Source of the DNA: Marinobacter sp. X15-166B
GTDB taxonomy: Bacteria > Pseudomonadota > Gammaproteobacteria > Pseudomonadales > Oleiphilaceae
Direction of reading: 5' to 3'
Assembly (NCBI RefSeq): GCF_001752365.1
Contig: NZ_MEIY01000001.1
Location: 530,069 to 594,068, forward strand
Length of the DNA: 64,000 nucleotides
Part shown: positions 23,520-29,895 of the stretch, one piece after another
How the letters are laid out: every line of letters begins with the position of its first letter
Numbering within the stretch: position 1 is the first letter of the stretch
Made by a program: the position numbers and the translations under genes
Notes under the pieces: model-generated
What the model was told of the DNA's origin: nothing
What the model saw: the letters and a program-made list of their open reading frames with translations, nothing else
Databases searched by the model: none

Positions 23520-23594
23520 CTGCATTCTCCTGCAATAATTTAGAAAACGGCGGTATTGCCTGCGCCTATTGTACAGTTTCCCCCTCAGCCTTGG

Positions 23595-25394
23595 ATGCCG
23601 ATCATGATTGGACTGGGCCAGATAGTCATCGTGTTGTCCGTAGCGGTCATCGCCGTACCGCTGTTCAAACGGGCCGGTCTGGGTGCCGTATTGGGGTACA
23701 TTGCTGCGGGCATGGTCCTGGGTCCCTATGGGCTGGGCGTCTTCAAGGCCCCCGACAACGTCATGCACATGTCCGAATTCGGGGTGGTGCTGCTGATGTT
23801 CGTGATCGGCATTGAGTTGCAGTTTTCCCGCCTCAAGGCCTTGCGCAAGCCCATTTTCGGTCTGGGATCGCTGCAGGTGGTGTTGTGCGTGGCGGCGCTG
23901 GGGGGCGCCATGGTGCTGGCCGGTGGCAGCTACACAGCGGCCATCGTGGTGGGTTGTGCGCTGGCGCTGTCCTCCACCGCGTTTGTGCTGCAATTGCTGG
24001 CCGAGAAAAAAGAGCTGACCAGTGCCCACGGCCGGTTGTCCTTCGCCTTCTTGCTGTTTCAGGATATTTCGGTGATTCCGATCATGGCATTCCTGCCGTT
24101 TCTGGCGGGTGGCGGTGAGACCAATGCCGGCTGGCAGGACCTGCTGACCGACGCCGTGCAGATTGTGGTGCTGTTTGCCGCCATTGTCATCGTCGCCCGA
24201 TACCTGCTGCGGGGCGCGCTGAAGTTCGTGCACTCTACCGGGGTCCGGGAAATATCCATTGCCGCGACCCTGCTGGTGGTGTCGGGGACGGCGTTGCTGA
24301 TGGAATTCGTGGGCCTGTCCATGGCCCTTGGCGCATTTGTCGCCGGGGTGCTGCTGGCCGAATCGGAGTTTCGCCACCAGCTGGAAGCCGATATAGAGCC
24401 GTTCAAGGGGCTGTTGCTGGGGCTGTTTTTCATCTCGGTCGGCATGACCCTGAATCTCTCGAAAGTGATCTCGTCGCCGCTGCAGTTGCTGTCCGTTGCG
24501 CTGTTGCTCATGCTTATCAAAACCGTGGTCATCGCAGCCGTGGGTTACTGGGGCGGCAAGATCAAGGGAGTGAATGCACTCAAACTGGGCCTGCTGCTCA
24601 GCCAGGGGGGCGAGTTTGGCTTTGTGATTCTGTCCCTCGCCGGCCAGCTTGATCTGGTGGACCGGGTGCTGCGGGAACAGATGACGGCGGTCATCACCCT
24701 GTCGATGATTCTGACCCCGCTGTTACTCACTCTGTTTGAAAAACTGACCCCTCACCTGGTTCGCGAAACGGAACCTGCGTTCGAGCAGCCTGACGAGGTC
24801 CAGTCGGGGGTGGTGATTGCCGGATTCGGCCGCTATGGCCAGATCAGCGGCCGGCTACTGGCCTCGCTGCAAATACCGTTTACGGCGCTGGACATCAGCC
24901 CGGACCAGGTCGACGTGGTGCGCAAATTTGGCAACAAGGTCCACTATGGCGACGCCTCACAGCTGGATGTCCTGCACGCCGCCAAAACCGGCGACGCCAA
25001 GGTGCTGGTGCTGGCGATCGACGACATCAGCGCCTCACTCAGAACGGCCCGCCTGATGCAACAGAACTTTCCCCACGTACGCATTCTCGCCCGCGCCCGG
25101 AACCGGCGCCACGCCCACTGTCTGATGGACGCCGGGGTTACCTGGATACTGCGGGAAACCTATTTGTCCGCCCTGGCGACCGCCGAAGAATTGCTGGTGA
25201 CCCTCGGGCGCGAGCGGGCCGAAGCCCAGGAGCTGACCACCCTGTTCCGCGAGGCAGACCAACGGACCTTGCGACGGCAGTACGGGATGCATCACGACCC
25301 GGAAAAGATCATTGAGTCGTCGAAGGAAAGCGCCGAAGCCCTGCGGGGGTTATTTGAACAAGATCTGGCGGGCACGGATCACCCACCGCGGTGA
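23595..25394 (+). CDS. KefB/KefC-like monovalent cation:proton antiporter (CPA2 family)
   Basis: 599 residues from the ATG at 23595; starts at 23556 or 23604 cannot be excluded, and no strong ribosome site marks any of them. Residues ~1-380 are the Na+/H+-exchanger domain, with a dozen or so hydrophobic helices and conserved FQDISVIP (~155) and [13 protein letters not shown] (~345). Residues ~405-520 are a TrkA-N/RCK domain ([18 protein letters not shown]). In E. coli such proteins release K+ and are gated by glutathione adducts, protecting from methylglyoxal and other electrophiles. Its position beside gloA fits that role. Confidence 0.87.
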
Positions 25395-25492
25395 CCCCGG
25401 CCGTTGCGCCCGAACCGACCACGCAGGCTCTGCTGGACACGCCCCCGGGCTGTCGCAGTAAACTGCCCCAGTCACTTACCAGTGAGCACGTT

Positions 25493-26575
25493 ATGGACGA
25501 TCCCAGCACACTTTCCAGCGACACATCCGACCCTTCCACAGAGGAGTCGCGAGCGCCGGGCCGCCGCTTGCTGTGGTCCGGCCTGCTGTTTATTGCCCTG
25601 ACCCTCGCCGGACTGACGGTGGTCTACCTGCAGTTCGCAGACAAAAGTGTCTCGTTTGACTGGCGGTTGCTGGCCCCTCAAACCCTGTTGGCGGTAGCAA
25701 CCCTGCTGCTGGTGTATTTCATTTCTGACGGATTACGCCTTTATTGCACTCTGCGGGCGCTGGGCTACGGCCTGCCGTTCAAAAAAGTATTCAAGCTGGT
25801 ATTTATCAACCTGTTTTTTGCCAATGTCACACCCATGGCCACGGGGGGCGGGTTTGCACAAATCTGGTACCTGCAGCGGCATGGCGTGCCCCTGGGTTAC
25901 GCCACGGCGGCCACCACCATTCGTACCGTACTGGCCGTCATCTTTATATTTTCACTCACACCCTTCTTTTTGATGACCCTGGAGGTTCTGCAGAAGCAAA
26001 CTCTGCTGAGCGACCTGGCCATGGCCCTGGCGGTGTTCATCACCCTCTATCTGGGCTTCTTTGCGGTGGTGCTGTTTCGCACCCGCTGGCTGATCGGTCC
26101 CCTGTGCACCCTGATCTCCTGGCTGCACAGAGTGCGTCTGCTCAGCGACACCCGGCAACGACGGTGGCTGTACAAGATCAAACGGGAAATGCTTGAGTTT
26201 TCCCAGAGCTTTGCTGAGTACCTGCGCGGTCCCAAACACTGGGTACTGCTCTCCGTTGTGTCTACCTGCGTGTTCTTGCTGAGCCTGTTCAGCATTCCGG
26301 CCCTGTTGATCTATAGTTTGGGGTACGAAGTGGATTACCTGACCACACTCGGGCTGTTGGTGGTGACCACGTTTATTATGTATGTTTCCCCAACGCCGGG
26401 TGCCTCGGGAATTTCGGAAGGCGTTTTCGGAACCTTTTTTCAGGCTACCCTCACCGCGAACCACCTGATTCTGGTGATTATCGGCTGGCGGTTTCTGACG
26501 ATCTATCTGGGCATGCTGGTTGGCCTGATGATCGTGCAACGGGAACTGCATGCGGGGCGCAAGGAGCAGCAATGA
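25493..26575 (+). CDS. Flippase-like integral membrane protein (UPF0104 / LPG-synthase TM-region family)
   Basis: About 360 residues from the ATG at 25493; a GTG start at 25391, overlapping the antiporter stop, would add 34 low-complexity residues. About eight hydrophobic helices are spread from residue ~25 to 350. Family signature residues include the NLFFANVTPMATGGGFAQIWYL segment and VSPTPGASGISEGVFG. This superfamily includes the membrane domain of MprF and the AglD-type proteins; many work next to glycosyltransferases in lipid-linked sugar synthesis or movement. The stop overlaps the following glycosyltransferase start by four bases, so the two are translationally coupled. Confidence 0.83.
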   Translation: MDDPSTLSSDTSDPSTEESRAPGRRLLWSGLLFIALTLAGLTVVYLQFADKSVSFDWRLLAPQTLLAVATLLLVYFISDGLRLYCTLRALGYGLPFKKVFKLVFINLFFANVTPMATGGGFAQIWYLQRHGVPLGYATAATTIRTVLAVIFIFSLTPFFLMTLEVLQKQTLLSDLAMALAVFITLYLGFFAVVLFRTRWLIGPLCTLISWLHRVRLLSDTRQRRWLYKIKREMLEFSQSFAEYLRGPKHWVLLSVVSTCVFLLSLFSIPALLIYSLGYEVDYLTTLGLLVVTTFIMYVSPTPGASGISEGVFGTFFQATLTANHLILVIIGWRFLTIYLGMLVGLMIVQRELHAGRKEQQ

Positions 26576-28821
26576 GGTTCAGAAACCGGGCGGCACAACT
26601 GAAGGCCTTATTTTACTTCAACCTGATGATTGTGTTGTTACTGGTGGGCTACAAGGTGTACCTCAATCTGTCAGATAACGCGTTTTCAGCGGTGCACACC
26701 GAAGAAGCGGCGCGACTGACCAGCACCCTGGCCGGCAGAGACGCCTTCAGCTTTGCGGTGGTGGGTAACATCAACAACTCCGTTGGCATTTTTGAAGAGC
26801 GCATCATTCCGATGCTGAACGCCGATGTGGATTTTATGGTCTCGGCAGGCAATGCGGTCAGTAATGGCAGCGAAGACAAATACCGGGCGCTCTACGGTTC
26901 CCTCAGCCACCTGCAGATCCCCTACCTGCTGACCTTCGGAAAAAACGAATATCAGAACTTTGGCAGTTTCCGGTTTTACGATCACTTCGGCCCGCATTTT
27001 TACAGCATCCGCGCCGGCAACAGCCGCCTGATCTTCCTCGACAGTACCAGCAAGACGCCCTGGCAATGGCAGGTGCGCTGGCTGACGGATCTGCTGAACA
27101 AAGATGACGCCCGGCACAAGTTTGTGTTTGTCGGCCACCCCCTGTTACCCAGCCCTCAGGAAACACTGTTTGTCCAGCCGGACGACTATCTGGCCCCCGA
27201 AGCATTTCAGCAGGCGCTGCTAGAGTTGTTCAAATTGCATCGGGTGGACGCGGTGTTCTCGGCCAATATGGCGGTCTACTCGCAGCAGGAGAAAGACGGC
27301 ACCTGGTTCGTCACCACCGGCGGTGCCGGCGGCCTGGTGCTGAACGATGAGCTCAGTTTTTACCACTTCGTGAAAGTCGACGTCGACGCCGAGGGCCAGG
27401 TCAGCATCAACCTGCAGCCTCTCGAGGTTGGCCAGCACCCGGTGCTGAAGCGCCTGGAAAGTCTATGGTTTTTCATCTATTCCCTGTTTTACGTCGGCTA
27501 TCTCAACTTTATTCTGCTGGTCAGCGTCTTTATCCTGATTGTTATCAAACTCTACGTGGTGGTGTTTGTCGGCCGTGACTACTACCCGGATTACGACCTG
27601 GATCCGGCGCCCTGGCTGAGCCGCCCCCTGCGGGTTGCCATGTTCACCAACAACTACCTGCCATTTATCGGCGGCGTCCCTATCTCCATCGAGCGGCTCA
27701 AGAGCGGTCTGCAATCCCTCGGCGATCAGGTGCTGATAGTCGCCCCCCGCTATAAGGAACAGGCGGACGAAAATGGCCAAGTGGTGCGGGTCCCGGCGCT
27801 GCTCACCCTGGGTGCCAAACGCGAATTCCGGATGGCCAATATTTTTTTGAGCCGGATTCGCCGTGCGGTACGCAGCTTCAAACCGGACATCATCCATGTG
27901 CACCACCCGTTCTGGCTGGGTACGCTGGGCCTGTTTATAGCGCGGCGCCTGAACGTTCCGGCGGTCTACACCTACCACACCCGGCTGGAGCATTACGCGC
28001 ATTTTGTCCCGTTGCCCGGTTCGTTATTCCGCAACCTGATCTCCCATGAACTCATCCGTCATTTTGCCAACAAGTGCGACGCGGTAATCGTGCCGACGGA
28101 TTCCACGGAGGAGTATCTGCGCATGATCGGAGTGAAGACCCCCTCGTTTGTGCAACCCACCGGCATTGAATACCAGCGCTTTCAGGCGGTCAGGCCCGGG
28201 GACGTCGACGCGCTGCGACAGCGCCTGCAACTGGCCGGTAATGAAAAAGTGCTGATCAGCGTGTCCCGCCTGTCCAATGAAAAGAACATCGATTTTATGA
28301 TCGATGCCATAGCCGCATTACGTGAACAGACCGACACGCCTTTTCGCTTTTTGATGATTGGCGACGGTCACCAGCGGGACCGCCTGCAGCAACGCATCGA
28401 ACAGTATCAACTTGCAGACCGGTTCGTGCTGGTGGGCGCCATTCCCCCAAACGAAATGGCCACCTGGTACCGGTTGGGGGACGTCTTTGTGTTTGCCTCC
28501 CGATCGGAAACCCAGGGTATGGTGATTCTGGAAGCCATGGCCGCGGGGCTGCCGGTCGTGGCGGTGCGCTCCAGCGGCATTGACGACGTGGTGCGACAGG
28601 GGTTCAATGGCTTCAAAACCGTGGCCAAGCAGGAGCCCTGGCGGGCCAAGGTACAACTATTGCTGGAAGACGACGCCCTGCGCGCCGAATTGTCCGAGCA
28701 TGCGCTGGCGTTCGCCAAAGACTTTTCGGTCGATCAGTTTGCCCGGGACATCCGCCTGATCTACGCTACCGCCCTGGCCAGCCGGGCCAGCAAAGAAAGC
28801 GCACAGGCCACCACGGCGTAA
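26572..28821 (+). CDS. Fusion of a degenerate periplasmic phosphoesterase domain with a GT4 glycosyltransferase
   Basis: 749 residues. Segment ~13-31 is a membrane helix; ~55-285 looks like a calcineurin-type metallophosphoesterase by fold pattern (YDHFGPHFYSI, IFLDS, TGGAGG). But every metal-ligand motif seems changed: GNINNS (65-70) replaces GDxHxx, SAGNAVSNG (91-99) replaces LGDxVxxG, FGKNEY replaces xGNHEx, and ANMAVY (231-236) replaces GHxHxY; only GHP at 188-190 keeps a His. A hydrophobic stretch ~297-333 follows, then a GT4 domain ~352-735 (NNYLPFIGGVPISIE, HHPFWLG, SRLSNEKNIDFMI, SETQGMVILEAMAAGLPVV). The GT half resembles mannosyl- or glucosyl-diacylglycerol-type transferases and probably faces the cytoplasm. 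Coupled to the flippase-like gene before it. Confidence 0.85.
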   Translation: MRFRNRAAQLKALFYFNLMIVLLLVGYKVYLNLSDNAFSAVHTEEAARLTSTLAGRDAFSFAVVGNINNSVGIFEERIIPMLNADVDFMVSAGNAVSNGSEDKYRALYGSLSHLQIPYLLTFGKNEYQNFGSFRFYDHFGPHFYSIRAGNSRLIFLDSTSKTPWQWQVRWLTDLLNKDDARHKFVFVGHPLLPSPQETLFVQPDDYLAPEAFQQALLELFKLHRVDAVFSANMAVYSQQEKDGTWFVTTGGAGGLVLNDELSFYHFVKVDVDAEGQVSINLQPLEVGQHPVLKRLESLWFFIYSLFYVGYLNFILLVSVFILIVIKLYVVVFVGRDYYPDYDLDPAPWLSRPLRVAMFTNNYLPFIGGVPISIERLKSGLQSLGDQVLIVAPRYKEQADENGQVVRVPALLTLGAKREFRMANIFLSRIRRAVRSFKPDIIHVHHPFWLGTLGLFIARRLNVPAVYTYHTRLEHYAHFVPLPGSLFRNLISHELIRHFANKCDAVIVPTDSTEEYLRMIGVKTPSFVQPTGIEYQRFQAVRPGDVDALRQRLQLAGNEKVLISVSRLSNEKNIDFMIDAIAALREQTDTPFRFLMIGDGHQRDRLQQRIEQYQLADRFVLVGAIPPNEMATWYRLGDVFVFASRSETQGMVILEAMAAGLPVVAVRSSGIDDVVRQGFNGFKTVAKQEPWRAKVQLLLEDDALRAELSEHALAFAKDFSVDQFARDIRLIYATALASRASKESAQATTA

Positions 28822-28947
28822 CACCCGGGCGGCTGTTCTCCTGACACCCGATGGGTTTACACTGTGTGAACGGACCACGGATTGACCTGCCCCGGCGTTC
28901 CCGGCAGGGACTCCGGGCCCCTCGGCCCCCCTGATGATGAGGCGATA

Positions 28948-29895
28948 ATGGAAAACAAGATTCCGGTCGGTATCAGCGCCTGCCTGCTGGGCAGGGAAGT
29001 CCGCCACGACGGCGGCCATAAACACTCCCGCTACTGCACGGAAGTGCTGGCCCGTCATTTCGAGTTTCACGCCGTGTGCCCGGAGCTGGAGTCCGGCATG
29101 GGTGTGCCGCGCCCCGCCATTCATCTCCGCGAGTTCGGCACAGAGGTGCGCCTGATCGAGAGCAAGGGCGAGCGGGATTTTTCAGCGCCGATGGAGCAGT
29201 TCATTGCGGGGGCACTGCCCAGACTTGGTCACCTGCGCGGTTACATTCTGATGGCCAAATCACCCAGCTGCGGGATGGAGCGCATCAAAGTGCACAACCA
29301 AGCCGGCCGGGTGATCCGTCGCGACGGTCGCGGTTTGTTTGCCGCCGCCTTGATGCAGGCGTACCCGTCCATGCCGGTGGAAGAGGAAGGCCGGCTGAAC
29401 GACGACCAGCTGAAAGAGAACTTTATCGAGCGGGTCTTCGTGTACGACGACTGGCTGCGCAACGTCGCCGCCGAACTGACCCCAAAGGCACTGATTGACT
29501 TCCACACCCGCCACAAGTTTCAGCTGCTGGCCCACAACGAGAAAATTTACCGCCAACTGGGGCCACTGCTGGCCGATCTGAAAGCCCAGCCACTGGAGGC
29601 GCTGGCCGACACTTACATTCGCGGGTTTATGACGGCGATGACACGGCTGGTCAGCCGGGGTTCCCACGTCAACGCCATGCAGCACCTGGCCGGTTACCTG
29701 AAAGACGGCATGCCCGCAGAAGACAGGAAAATGCTGGGCGAGCAAATCGAGGCCTACCATCGCGGCGAGCTGCCGCTGATTGTCCCCATGACCCTGTTGC
29801 GGATGGCCCAGCGGCGGGAACCCATAGCCTATCTGTCGATCCAGGATTACCTCAGCCCCTACCCGGAAGAACTGGGGCTGAGGAATCGCGTTTAG
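28948..29895 (+). CDS. DUF523 + DUF1722 protein (YbgA-related)
   Basis: 315 residues from the ATG at 28948 (ATGGAAAACAAG), with ATGATGAGGCG upstream as a weak ribosome site. Residues ~5-150 are DUF523 (GISACLLGREVRHDGGHKHSRYC, CPELESGMGVPRPAI, AKSPSCGMERI), rich in conserved cysteines; residues ~180-300 are the DUF1722/YbgA domain (LIDFHTRHKFQLLAHNEKIYRQLG, YLKDGMPAEDR). Such fusions are found near DNA-photolyase and stress genes in other bacteria, but the activity is unknown. It converges with trhO 11 bases later. Confidence 0.9.
   Translation: MENKIPVGISACLLGREVRHDGGHKHSRYCTEVLARHFEFHAVCPELESGMGVPRPAIHLREFGTEVRLIESKGERDFSAPMEQFIAGALPRLGHLRGYILMAKSPSCGMERIKVHNQAGRVIRRDGRGLFAAALMQAYPSMPVEEEGRLNDDQLKENFIERVFVYDDWLRNVAAELTPKALIDFHTRHKFQLLAHNEKIYRQLGPLLADLKAQPLEALADTYIRGFMTAMTRLVSRGSHVNAMQHLAGYLKDGMPAEDRKMLGEQIEAYHRGELPLIVPMTLLRMAQRREPIAYLSIQDYLSPYPEELGLRNRV

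Follow-up and report, generated by a model that had tools for sequence, protein, structure and literature searches.

A predicted membrane-tethered GT4 glycosyltransferase of Marinobacter with a conserved pseudo-phosphatase domain

The locus and its homologues

The window analysed here is a stretch of 64,000 nucleotides from Marinobacter sp. X15-166B (contig NZ_MEIY01000001.1), in which one long open reading frame joins a domain of purple-acid-phosphatase type to a GT4 glycosyltransferase (GT). Its features are listed below, with residue numbers of the fused protein.

25391..26575, + strand: MprF-type flippase domain protein, 394 aa (PF03706, TIGR00374), overlapping the start of the fused gene
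26572..28821, + strand: fused frame, 749 aa, made up of a pseudo-purple-acid-phosphatase domain, membrane segments, and a GT4 glycosyltransferase (alignment of 98 distinct full-length homologues)
26590..26664, + strand: hydrophobic segment 1, residues 7-31 (hydropathy; model helix 3-33)
26746..27438, + strand: pseudo-phosphoesterase domain, residues about 59-289 (predicted structure, fold match, profile match)
26764..26781, + strand: former motif I (GDxH), now G65 N66 I67 N68 N69 S70 (alignment of 98)
26842..26868, + strand: former motif II (GD), now S91 A92 G93 N94 A95 ... G99 (N94 in 98/98)
26935..26952, + strand: former motif III (GNHE), now F122 G123 x124 N/H125 E126 (E126 in 98/98)
27127..27147, + strand: former motif IV (H-x-P), now G188 H189 P190 (PDB and L167 register)
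27262..27279, + strand: former motif V (GHxH), now A231 N232 x A234 (alignment of 98)
27463..27585, + strand: hydrophobic segment 2, residues 298-338 (hydropathy; model helix 290-331)
27628..28791, + strand: GT4 glycosyltransferase domain, residues 353-740 (PF00534, PF13439)

A preliminary description made from the letters of the window had given the frame exactly, and all strings quoted in it are found in the translation (GNINNS at 65-70, SAGNAVSNG at 91-99, FGKNEY at 122-127, FLDS at 155-158, ANMAVY at 231-236, and TGGAGG at 249-254). Its order of a membrane segment followed by a GT4 domain also agrees with the hydropathy profile and with the Pfam matches.

The first hydrophobic segment is probably a signal anchor and is preceded by 4 K/R among residues 1-11, while the second stretch is 41 residues long by hydropathy and E296-F313 is well conserved in the family alignment. 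The donor sugars of GT4 enzymes are cytosolic; on this ground, and from the two hydrophobic segments and the K/R residues before the first, the phosphatase-fold domain is predicted to be periplasmic, on the opposite face of the membrane from the GT domain. The full-length model has a pTM of 0.49 and a low-confidence linker (pLDDT < 50 at 299-306 and 327-342), which makes any route of coupling or count of membrane crossings taken from it tentative.

In total 125 homologous frames were collected, 122 of which span the whole protein, and 98 distinct sequences were kept after dropping copies identical over positions 41-700; one frame that runs off the end of its locus (L016) and two pieces of the frame of M. 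salarius R9SW1 (L086), which is split inside the domain, were left out of the alignment. Loci were taken for 30 of the 50 matches of one homologue search and for 30 of the 34 of another. Among the matches listed in a search of open-licence literature there was no paper on this fusion or on such pseudoenzymes, and no characterised member was seen.

Fold of the N-terminal domain

The full-length model used as a fold query returned only glycosyltransferases among the best 50 matches, and the N-terminal domain was therefore modelled alone. The AlphaFold model of the domain (pLDDT 84.3, pTM 0.88) was aligned by VIA-align with Z of 19.4-20.6 to Lmo2642, GpdQ, plant and mammal purple acid phosphatases, GAP50 (3tgh), and Rv0805, the alignments to the first three and to Rv0805 covering 204-234 residues. 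A PDB search with the single sequence of residues 1-326 gave nothing at E <= 1, and only the domain profile matched, reaching purple acid phosphatases with E 5.5e-5. The PF00149 score is 13.7 bits for the window protein and 14.0 for the domain alone, below the gathering score of 21.5; at E <= 1 this model matches 13 of 16 aligned members, with a best E of 1.2e-5. According to these models and profiles the domain has the metallophosphoesterase fold of calcineurin/purple-acid-phosphatase type that had been proposed for it. It resembles purple acid phosphatases, GpdQ, and Rv0805 in fold (Z about 20) and scaffold motifs and differs from them at the metal site, where the family keeps at most one of seven ligands (n=98).

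Loss of the metal site

The metal ligands of metallophosphoesterases, which we take to be D, H, D, N, H, H, and H, are replaced at all seven positions of the window protein (D66N, H68N, D94N, N124K, H188G, H232N, and H234A), as the preliminary description had claimed. The replacement extends to the homologues: 89 of the 98 keep none of the seven and 9 keep one, a His at 232 or 234, so that these 98 include no member of the fusion with intact ligands. With His189 taken as the motif-IV ligand, 22 of the 98 keep none, 69 keep one, and 7 keep two.

The register was taken from L167, a metallophosphoesterase with intact motifs that this genome also encodes; its profile alignment sets G93-N94 on GD, G123-K124-N125-E126 on GNHD, G188-H189-P190 on HHP, and A231-N232-M233-A234 on GHLH, while motif I, with N66 matched to D and N68 to H, was positioned by visual inspection. 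PDB alignments likewise put G188 on the His of MHSP in kidney-bean phosphatase, its motif-IV metal ligand. A fixed regular expression for intact motifs recovered two of the eight PF00149 loci of the genome (L167 and L172) and one of seven weak class matches (L103) and is too strict for counting intact enzymes, so L167 was used for register only. The probability of alignment to the family profile was 94 for L103, 89 for L167, and 14 for L172, the last over only 77 columns.

The Asn residues that took the place of ligands in motifs I and II are nearly fixed. Positions 66/68/94 read N/N/N in 93 homologues, N/S/N in 4, and S/N/N in 1, and motif I holds N66 in 97, N68 in 94, and N69 and S70 in all 98. 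The Asn ligand of motif III is kept in 0/98, with position 125 being H in 51 and N in 39; position 188 is G in 74, A in 14, S in 7, N in 3, and H in none, with H189 in 74. Motif V has His at 232 in 4/98 and at 234 in 5/98. In this register the former metal-site Asn residues would line one pocket.

On these sequences the domain appears to be a dead phosphatase whose two-metal centre has been lost for good. Continued catalysis by an altered centre, with one metal or metal-free, might be read from the His in about half of the members at position 125, which is the catalytic-His position of GNHE, from the invariant E126, and from the frequent H189, but it is very improbable, since both Asp ligands (66 and 94) are Asn or Ser in 98/98 and at most one of the seven ligands survives in any member. 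A new use in binding or control, and not in catalysis, is the probable fate of the domain.

Conservation and selection

The median dN/dS is 0.064 for the phosphatase-fold domain and 0.060 for the GT domain in 57 close pairs (those computable among the 60 closest of 142 pairs, many of which share sequences). Because the domain value is as low as that of the GT domain, the codon comparison indicates purifying selection on a maintained pseudoenzyme, in accord with the earlier view that the substitutions were selective and the fold was kept. Decay of the domain, as a leftover from an earlier bifunctional enzyme, is scarcely credible: its catalytic residues are lost and one frame is split inside it (L086), but the low dN/dS persists, all but three of the 125 frames span the protein (the rest being the locus-end stop and the two L086 pieces), and domain identity between pairs of homologues goes as low as 31%.

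Conservation in the loops of motifs I-III, which were picked after the alignment was seen, exceeds that of the domain outside the loops (3.50 vs 2.63), a level reached by 72 of 5000 random block placements. Loops IV and V (2.56 and 2.85) are hardly above the non-loop value, and thus the former pocket is not frozen as a whole.

The GT4 domain and its acceptor

The GT part matches PF00534 (132.8 bits, E 1.2e-38, cut-off 26.4) and PF13439 (108.6 bits, E 4.4e-31, cut-off 28.5), and in the full-length model its fold matches BshA, MshA, and PimB'. The donor-site residues R566, K571, E646, and E654 are intact, with a weighted frequency of 1.0 across the family, and correspond to EX7E with Arg/Lys, which we take to be the GT4 donor-site motif. 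By sequence this is a GT4 glycosyltransferase with a complete donor site, probably tethered to the membrane.

Among NCBIfam models the best score belongs to alpha-monoglucosyldiacylglycerol synthase (NF049988; 207 bits over residues 354-736, the GT part only, cut-off 400) and the second to the GlcNAc-PG synthase GpgS (NF053787; 131 bits vs cut-off 480), and no match of the latter profile in the whole genome passes its cut-off. Scores so far below the cut-offs do not give a substrate assignment; the acceptor is most likely a membrane lipid of diacylglycerol or phosphatidylglycerol type. Two indirect pointers connect the protein with glycolipid: this MGlcDAG-synthase-like score and, in Marinobacter, the co-inherited MprF-type flippase. 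A lipid-linked or envelope polysaccharide as the acceptor, with the pseudo-phosphatase binding that glycan, would fit the breadth of the GT4 family, several polysaccharide models of which also match, more weakly. The VTT/DedA neighbour of some members (see below) would suit undecaprenyl-phosphate recycling (PMC10127716, PMC12893004). We consider this acceptor unlikely, the top-scoring model being a glycolipid synthase and the tested neighbours forming no polysaccharide cluster.

The upstream flippase and the gene neighbourhood

The protein encoded upstream scores 122 bits with PF03706 (cut-off 33.4), the membrane domain of MprF, and 97 bits with TIGR00374, while its score with the GlcN-PG flippase model NF053789 is 40 bits, below the cut-off of 320. 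The overlapping genes are presumably co-transcribed. In 61 Marinobacter genomes GT and flippase occur together in 48, GT only in 1, flippase only in 0, and neither in 12 (Fisher p 7e-12, without a correction for kinship; the GT count includes G036, in which the GT frame is split), and in 48/48 genomes with both the genes adjoin on the same strand with 0-74 bases between the matches.

Co-inheritance with the MprF-type flippase holds in Marinobacter and not across all members. A gene for a VTT-domain protein of the DedA superfamily lies nearby in place of the flippase at 11 of the 67 loci, 4 of these matching by construction since the profile was built from L163, L164, L166, L157, and L076. This replacement is found in 8/10 Halomonadaceae loci, and 7/7 Pseudomonas loci have neither gene nearby. 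Neither translocase type lies within 3.5 kb at 14 of the 67 loci, including one that lacks upstream DNA (L049). Eight genomes chosen for having no flippase next to the GT gave no flippase match at E <= 1e-5, and two controls matched. PF10096, which we take to cover the GpgD-type deacetylase and which was the sole deacetylase family covered, matches nothing in this genome at E <= 0.001. Other neighbours in the window are KefC-like, TudS/DUF1722, TrhO, and thioredoxin-fold genes, and across 63 loci TrhO recurs at 36, the thioredoxin-fold gene at 32, and TudS/DUF1722 at 32.

Two known systems are close to this arrangement. In the GlcN-phosphatidylglycerol pathway of Pseudomonas aeruginosa (GpgS/GpgD/GpgF), GpgS is a phospholipid-modifying GT4 encoded with a UPF0104/YbhN-type flippase gene; it is predicted to be cytoplasmic and free of membrane helices (PMC12713373), whereas the fused protein has membrane segments and a dead phosphatase domain. 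MprF likewise couples lipid translocation to an enzyme modifying lipid head groups, but by aminoacylation, with both functions in one polypeptide and no glycosyltransferase (PMC11980842).

Possible role of the pseudo-phosphatase domain

Our preferred reading, held tentatively and at a little less than an even chance, is a membrane-tethered enzyme that glycosylates a lipid destined to be flipped to the outside, with its periplasmic pseudo-phosphatase acting as a ligand-binding or docking regulator. The GT4 domain would add a sugar to a membrane lipid on the cytoplasmic side, and in Marinobacter the MprF-type flippase would move the product to the outer leaflet. There the pseudo-phosphatase may recognise, non-catalytically, the head group of the glycolipid or else a different phospho-ligand, the near-invariant N66, N68, N69, S70, N94, and E126 being retained at the former metal-site loops of a binding or docking module, and the conserved helix E296-F313 may couple its ligand state to the GT domain.

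Alternatively, the dead domain could be a scaffold only, a periplasmic anchor that docks the flippase or another envelope protein and has no small ligand, which we regard as rather doubtful. Co-inheritance with the flippase in Marinobacter would suit docking, and GAP50 of Plasmodium, among the closest folds, offers a purple-acid-phosphatase fold as a membrane anchor, that of the glideosome according to a review. However, GAP50 is a eukaryotic glideosome protein for which the same review reports phosphatase activity, and hence no clean precedent. The genomic partner moreover varies (flippase, VTT protein, or neither), and N66, N68, and N94 are nearly fixed in all sampled lineages, which argues that the former metal site itself matters.

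Membrane surface charge is set by systems in which a lipid-modifying enzyme works with a flippase, such as MprF and GpgSDF. A glycosyltransferase that bears a conserved dead phosphatase, probably across the membrane from its GT domain, is a candidate for feedback that would tell an inner-leaflet enzyme what has arrived in the outer leaflet. A more specific form of the preferred lipid-glycosyltransferase reading, possible but on balance doubtful, is that these enzymes sense their own flipped product, with the Asn-lined former site at the outer face binding the glycolipid head group and signalling via the helix. If true, one polypeptide would both measure and set leaflet composition on the two sides of the membrane. 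The family is also a clear example, from bacteria, of how a purple-acid-phosphatase fold can stay under strong selection after the loss of its metal ligands.

Relation to unfused glycosyltransferases

In a tree of GT domains built from 44 fused rows of the 98 and 12 unfused ones, the latter set as the outgroup by choice, fused and unfused GTs fall on opposite sides of one branch (SH-aLRT 96). Two rows, L134 and L135, sit on extreme branches of this tree.

The fused protein and the fold of its N-terminal domain

The glycosyltransferase under study is fused to an N-terminal pseudo-phosphatase domain in an intact reading frame, and its homologues in the named collection are mostly from Marinobacter.

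26572-28821, + strand: fused gene, 749 aa

The GT4 glycosyltransferase occupies residues 353-740 (PF00534, 132.8 bits; PF13439, 108.6 bits), and its R566, K571, E646 and E654 are invariant across the family. Residues 59-289 match PF00149 below threshold (13.7 bits); the same model is found at E <= 1 in 13 of 16 aligned homologues (best 1.2e-5), and a profile of the aligned homologues matched purple acid phosphatases of the PDB at 5.5e-5. The phosphoesterase fold proposed for this domain in the preliminary description is borne out by a domain-only AlphaFold2 model (45 sequences; pLDDT 84.3, pTM 0.88), by the Foldseek ranking, where purple acid phosphatases, GAP50, GpdQ and Rv0805 are among the first 14 matches, and by VIA-align 2, with Z of 20.6 for Lmo2642, 20.5 for GpdQ and 19.9 for purple acid phosphatases (218-234 residues, rmsd 2.8-3.7).

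Hydrophobic stretches flank the domain at residues 7-31 and 298-338. GT4 enzymes need cytosolic sugar nucleotides and four K/R precede the first stretch, so on the simplest reading of the sequence the domain would be periplasmic. The second stretch may be a hairpin, given its length and its low model confidence (pLDDT < 50 at 299-306 and 327-342). Conservation is high in the first part of this stretch (weighted frequency E296 0.92, S297 0.93, W299 0.89, Y307 1.0, F313 0.94), with mean relative entropy of 3.18 for residues 290-315 against 2.25 for 316-333.

Former metal site

Aligning the domain with an intact metallophosphoesterase encoded by the window's genome, and with kidney-bean purple acid phosphatase, gave the register of motifs II-V; that of motif I was placed by eye.

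Residues at the former metal-ligand positions and the catalytic-His site in 98 distinct full-length family members
66 (motif I, by eye): N 97, S 1
68 (motif I, by eye): N 94, S 4
94 (motif II): N 98
124 (motif III): N 0
125 (catalytic-His site): H 51, N 39
188 (motif IV): G 74, A 14, S 7, N 3, H 0
232 (motif V): N 76, H 4
234 (motif V): S 57, P 23, A 9, H 5

None of the seven ligands is kept in 89 of the 98 members and one is kept in 9. Even the deepest-branching fused protein of the tree (L131; 39% identical to the window's protein across the alignment) has S66, N68 and N94, and thus the ligand loss would most simply be older than the spread of the sampled family.

Mean relative entropy is 3.50 in loops I-III versus 2.63 at non-loop domain positions, a value equalled or exceeded by 72 of 5000 random block placements, while loops IV and V are unremarkable (2.56 and 2.85), which counts against a fully frozen pocket. 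Median dN/dS over 57 pairs is 0.064 in the pseudo-phosphatase domain and 0.060 in the glycosyltransferase; to judge from these sequences, the domain is not decaying. In Marinobacter salarius R9SW1 (L086:5911-8120) the gene is broken into two frames inside this domain, which may be a sequencing error or a real break.

Origin and spread

A quick tree built from 44 fused and 12 unfused GT4 domains puts all fused ones on one side of a branch with SH-aLRT 96, and in the phylum sample (E <= 1e-60) a score gap separates fused (at least 574 bits) from unfused proteins (at most 264 bits). Named homologues come from Marinobacter, Pseudomonas, Halopseudomonas, Halomonadaceae, Idiomarina and Marinimicrobium, and further from records labelled Rhodobacteraceae and Desulfobacterales. 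The copy on a contig labelled Desulfobacterales bacterium (L050) groups with Marinobacter and Idiomarina, and the label is perhaps a binning error. Two Idiomarina copies (L062, L063) form a long branch among the Marinobacter rows and are adjoined by the flippase; a transfer of the pair is possible.

Partner genes

25391-26575, upstream of the glycosyltransferase gene and sharing four bases with it: MprF-type flippase-domain gene (PF03706, 122 bits)

Among 61 genomes of the genus the glycosyltransferase is found in 49 and the flippase in 48 (both 48, glycosyltransferase only 1, namely G010, flippase only 0, neither 12); in every genome with both, the two matches are on the same contig and strand, 0-74 bases apart. 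Restricting the set to the 53 genomes with completeness of 90% or more and contamination of 5% or less leaves 42 with the glycosyltransferase and 41 with the flippase. Across 67 glycosyltransferase loci (63 named, 4 fetched) a flippase is nearby in 42, a VTT-domain gene in 11 and neither in 14, the VTT call being by Pfam for L163, L164 and L166 and elsewhere by a profile partly built from these. Eight genomes, chosen for having no adjacent flippase, gave no flippase match at E <= 1e-5, with two controls positive. The flippase is therefore a lineage partner of the glycosyltransferase, not an obligate one.

The VTT link may be older than the fusion, since an unfused relative (L157:4909-7141) also adjoins a VTT-domain gene, here convergent. 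At another locus (L159:1842-8540) the neighbours of an unfused GT4 relative are, on one side, a 765-aa protein in which Pfam finds nothing at E <= 0.01 and, on the other, an 812-aa protein that carries Phosphodiest and Exo_endo_phos domains, and a VTT-domain gene lies upstream; L156 resembles this arrangement by eye.

Putative function

The best named glycosyltransferase models, both below cut-off, are alpha-monoglucosyldiacylglycerol synthase (207 bits) and GlcNAc-phosphatidylglycerol synthase (131 bits). The pair with the flippase can be likened to GpgS/GpgF of P. aeruginosa (PMC12713373) and to the enzyme-plus-translocation logic of MprF (PMC11980842). No PF10096 deacetylase was found in the window's genome at E <= 0.001. 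From these models and resemblances we therefore think of the protein as a putative lipid glycosyltransferase whose outer domain has taken on a new role. For that domain, putative ligand sensing seems somewhat more probable than docking alone, chiefly because the former metal site keeps fixed residues while the neighbouring genes vary.

Other neighbouring genes

23556-25394, adjoining the flippase gene: KefC-like gene
28882-29895, downstream of the glycosyltransferase gene: 2-thiouracil desulfurase domain joined to DUF1722

The KefC-like gene looks like a local insertion, since none of the 63 named loci has a match to it near the glycosyltransferase at E <= 1e-10. The desulfurase/DUF1722 gene lies near the glycosyltransferase in 32 of 63 loci, which is likely plain synteny.
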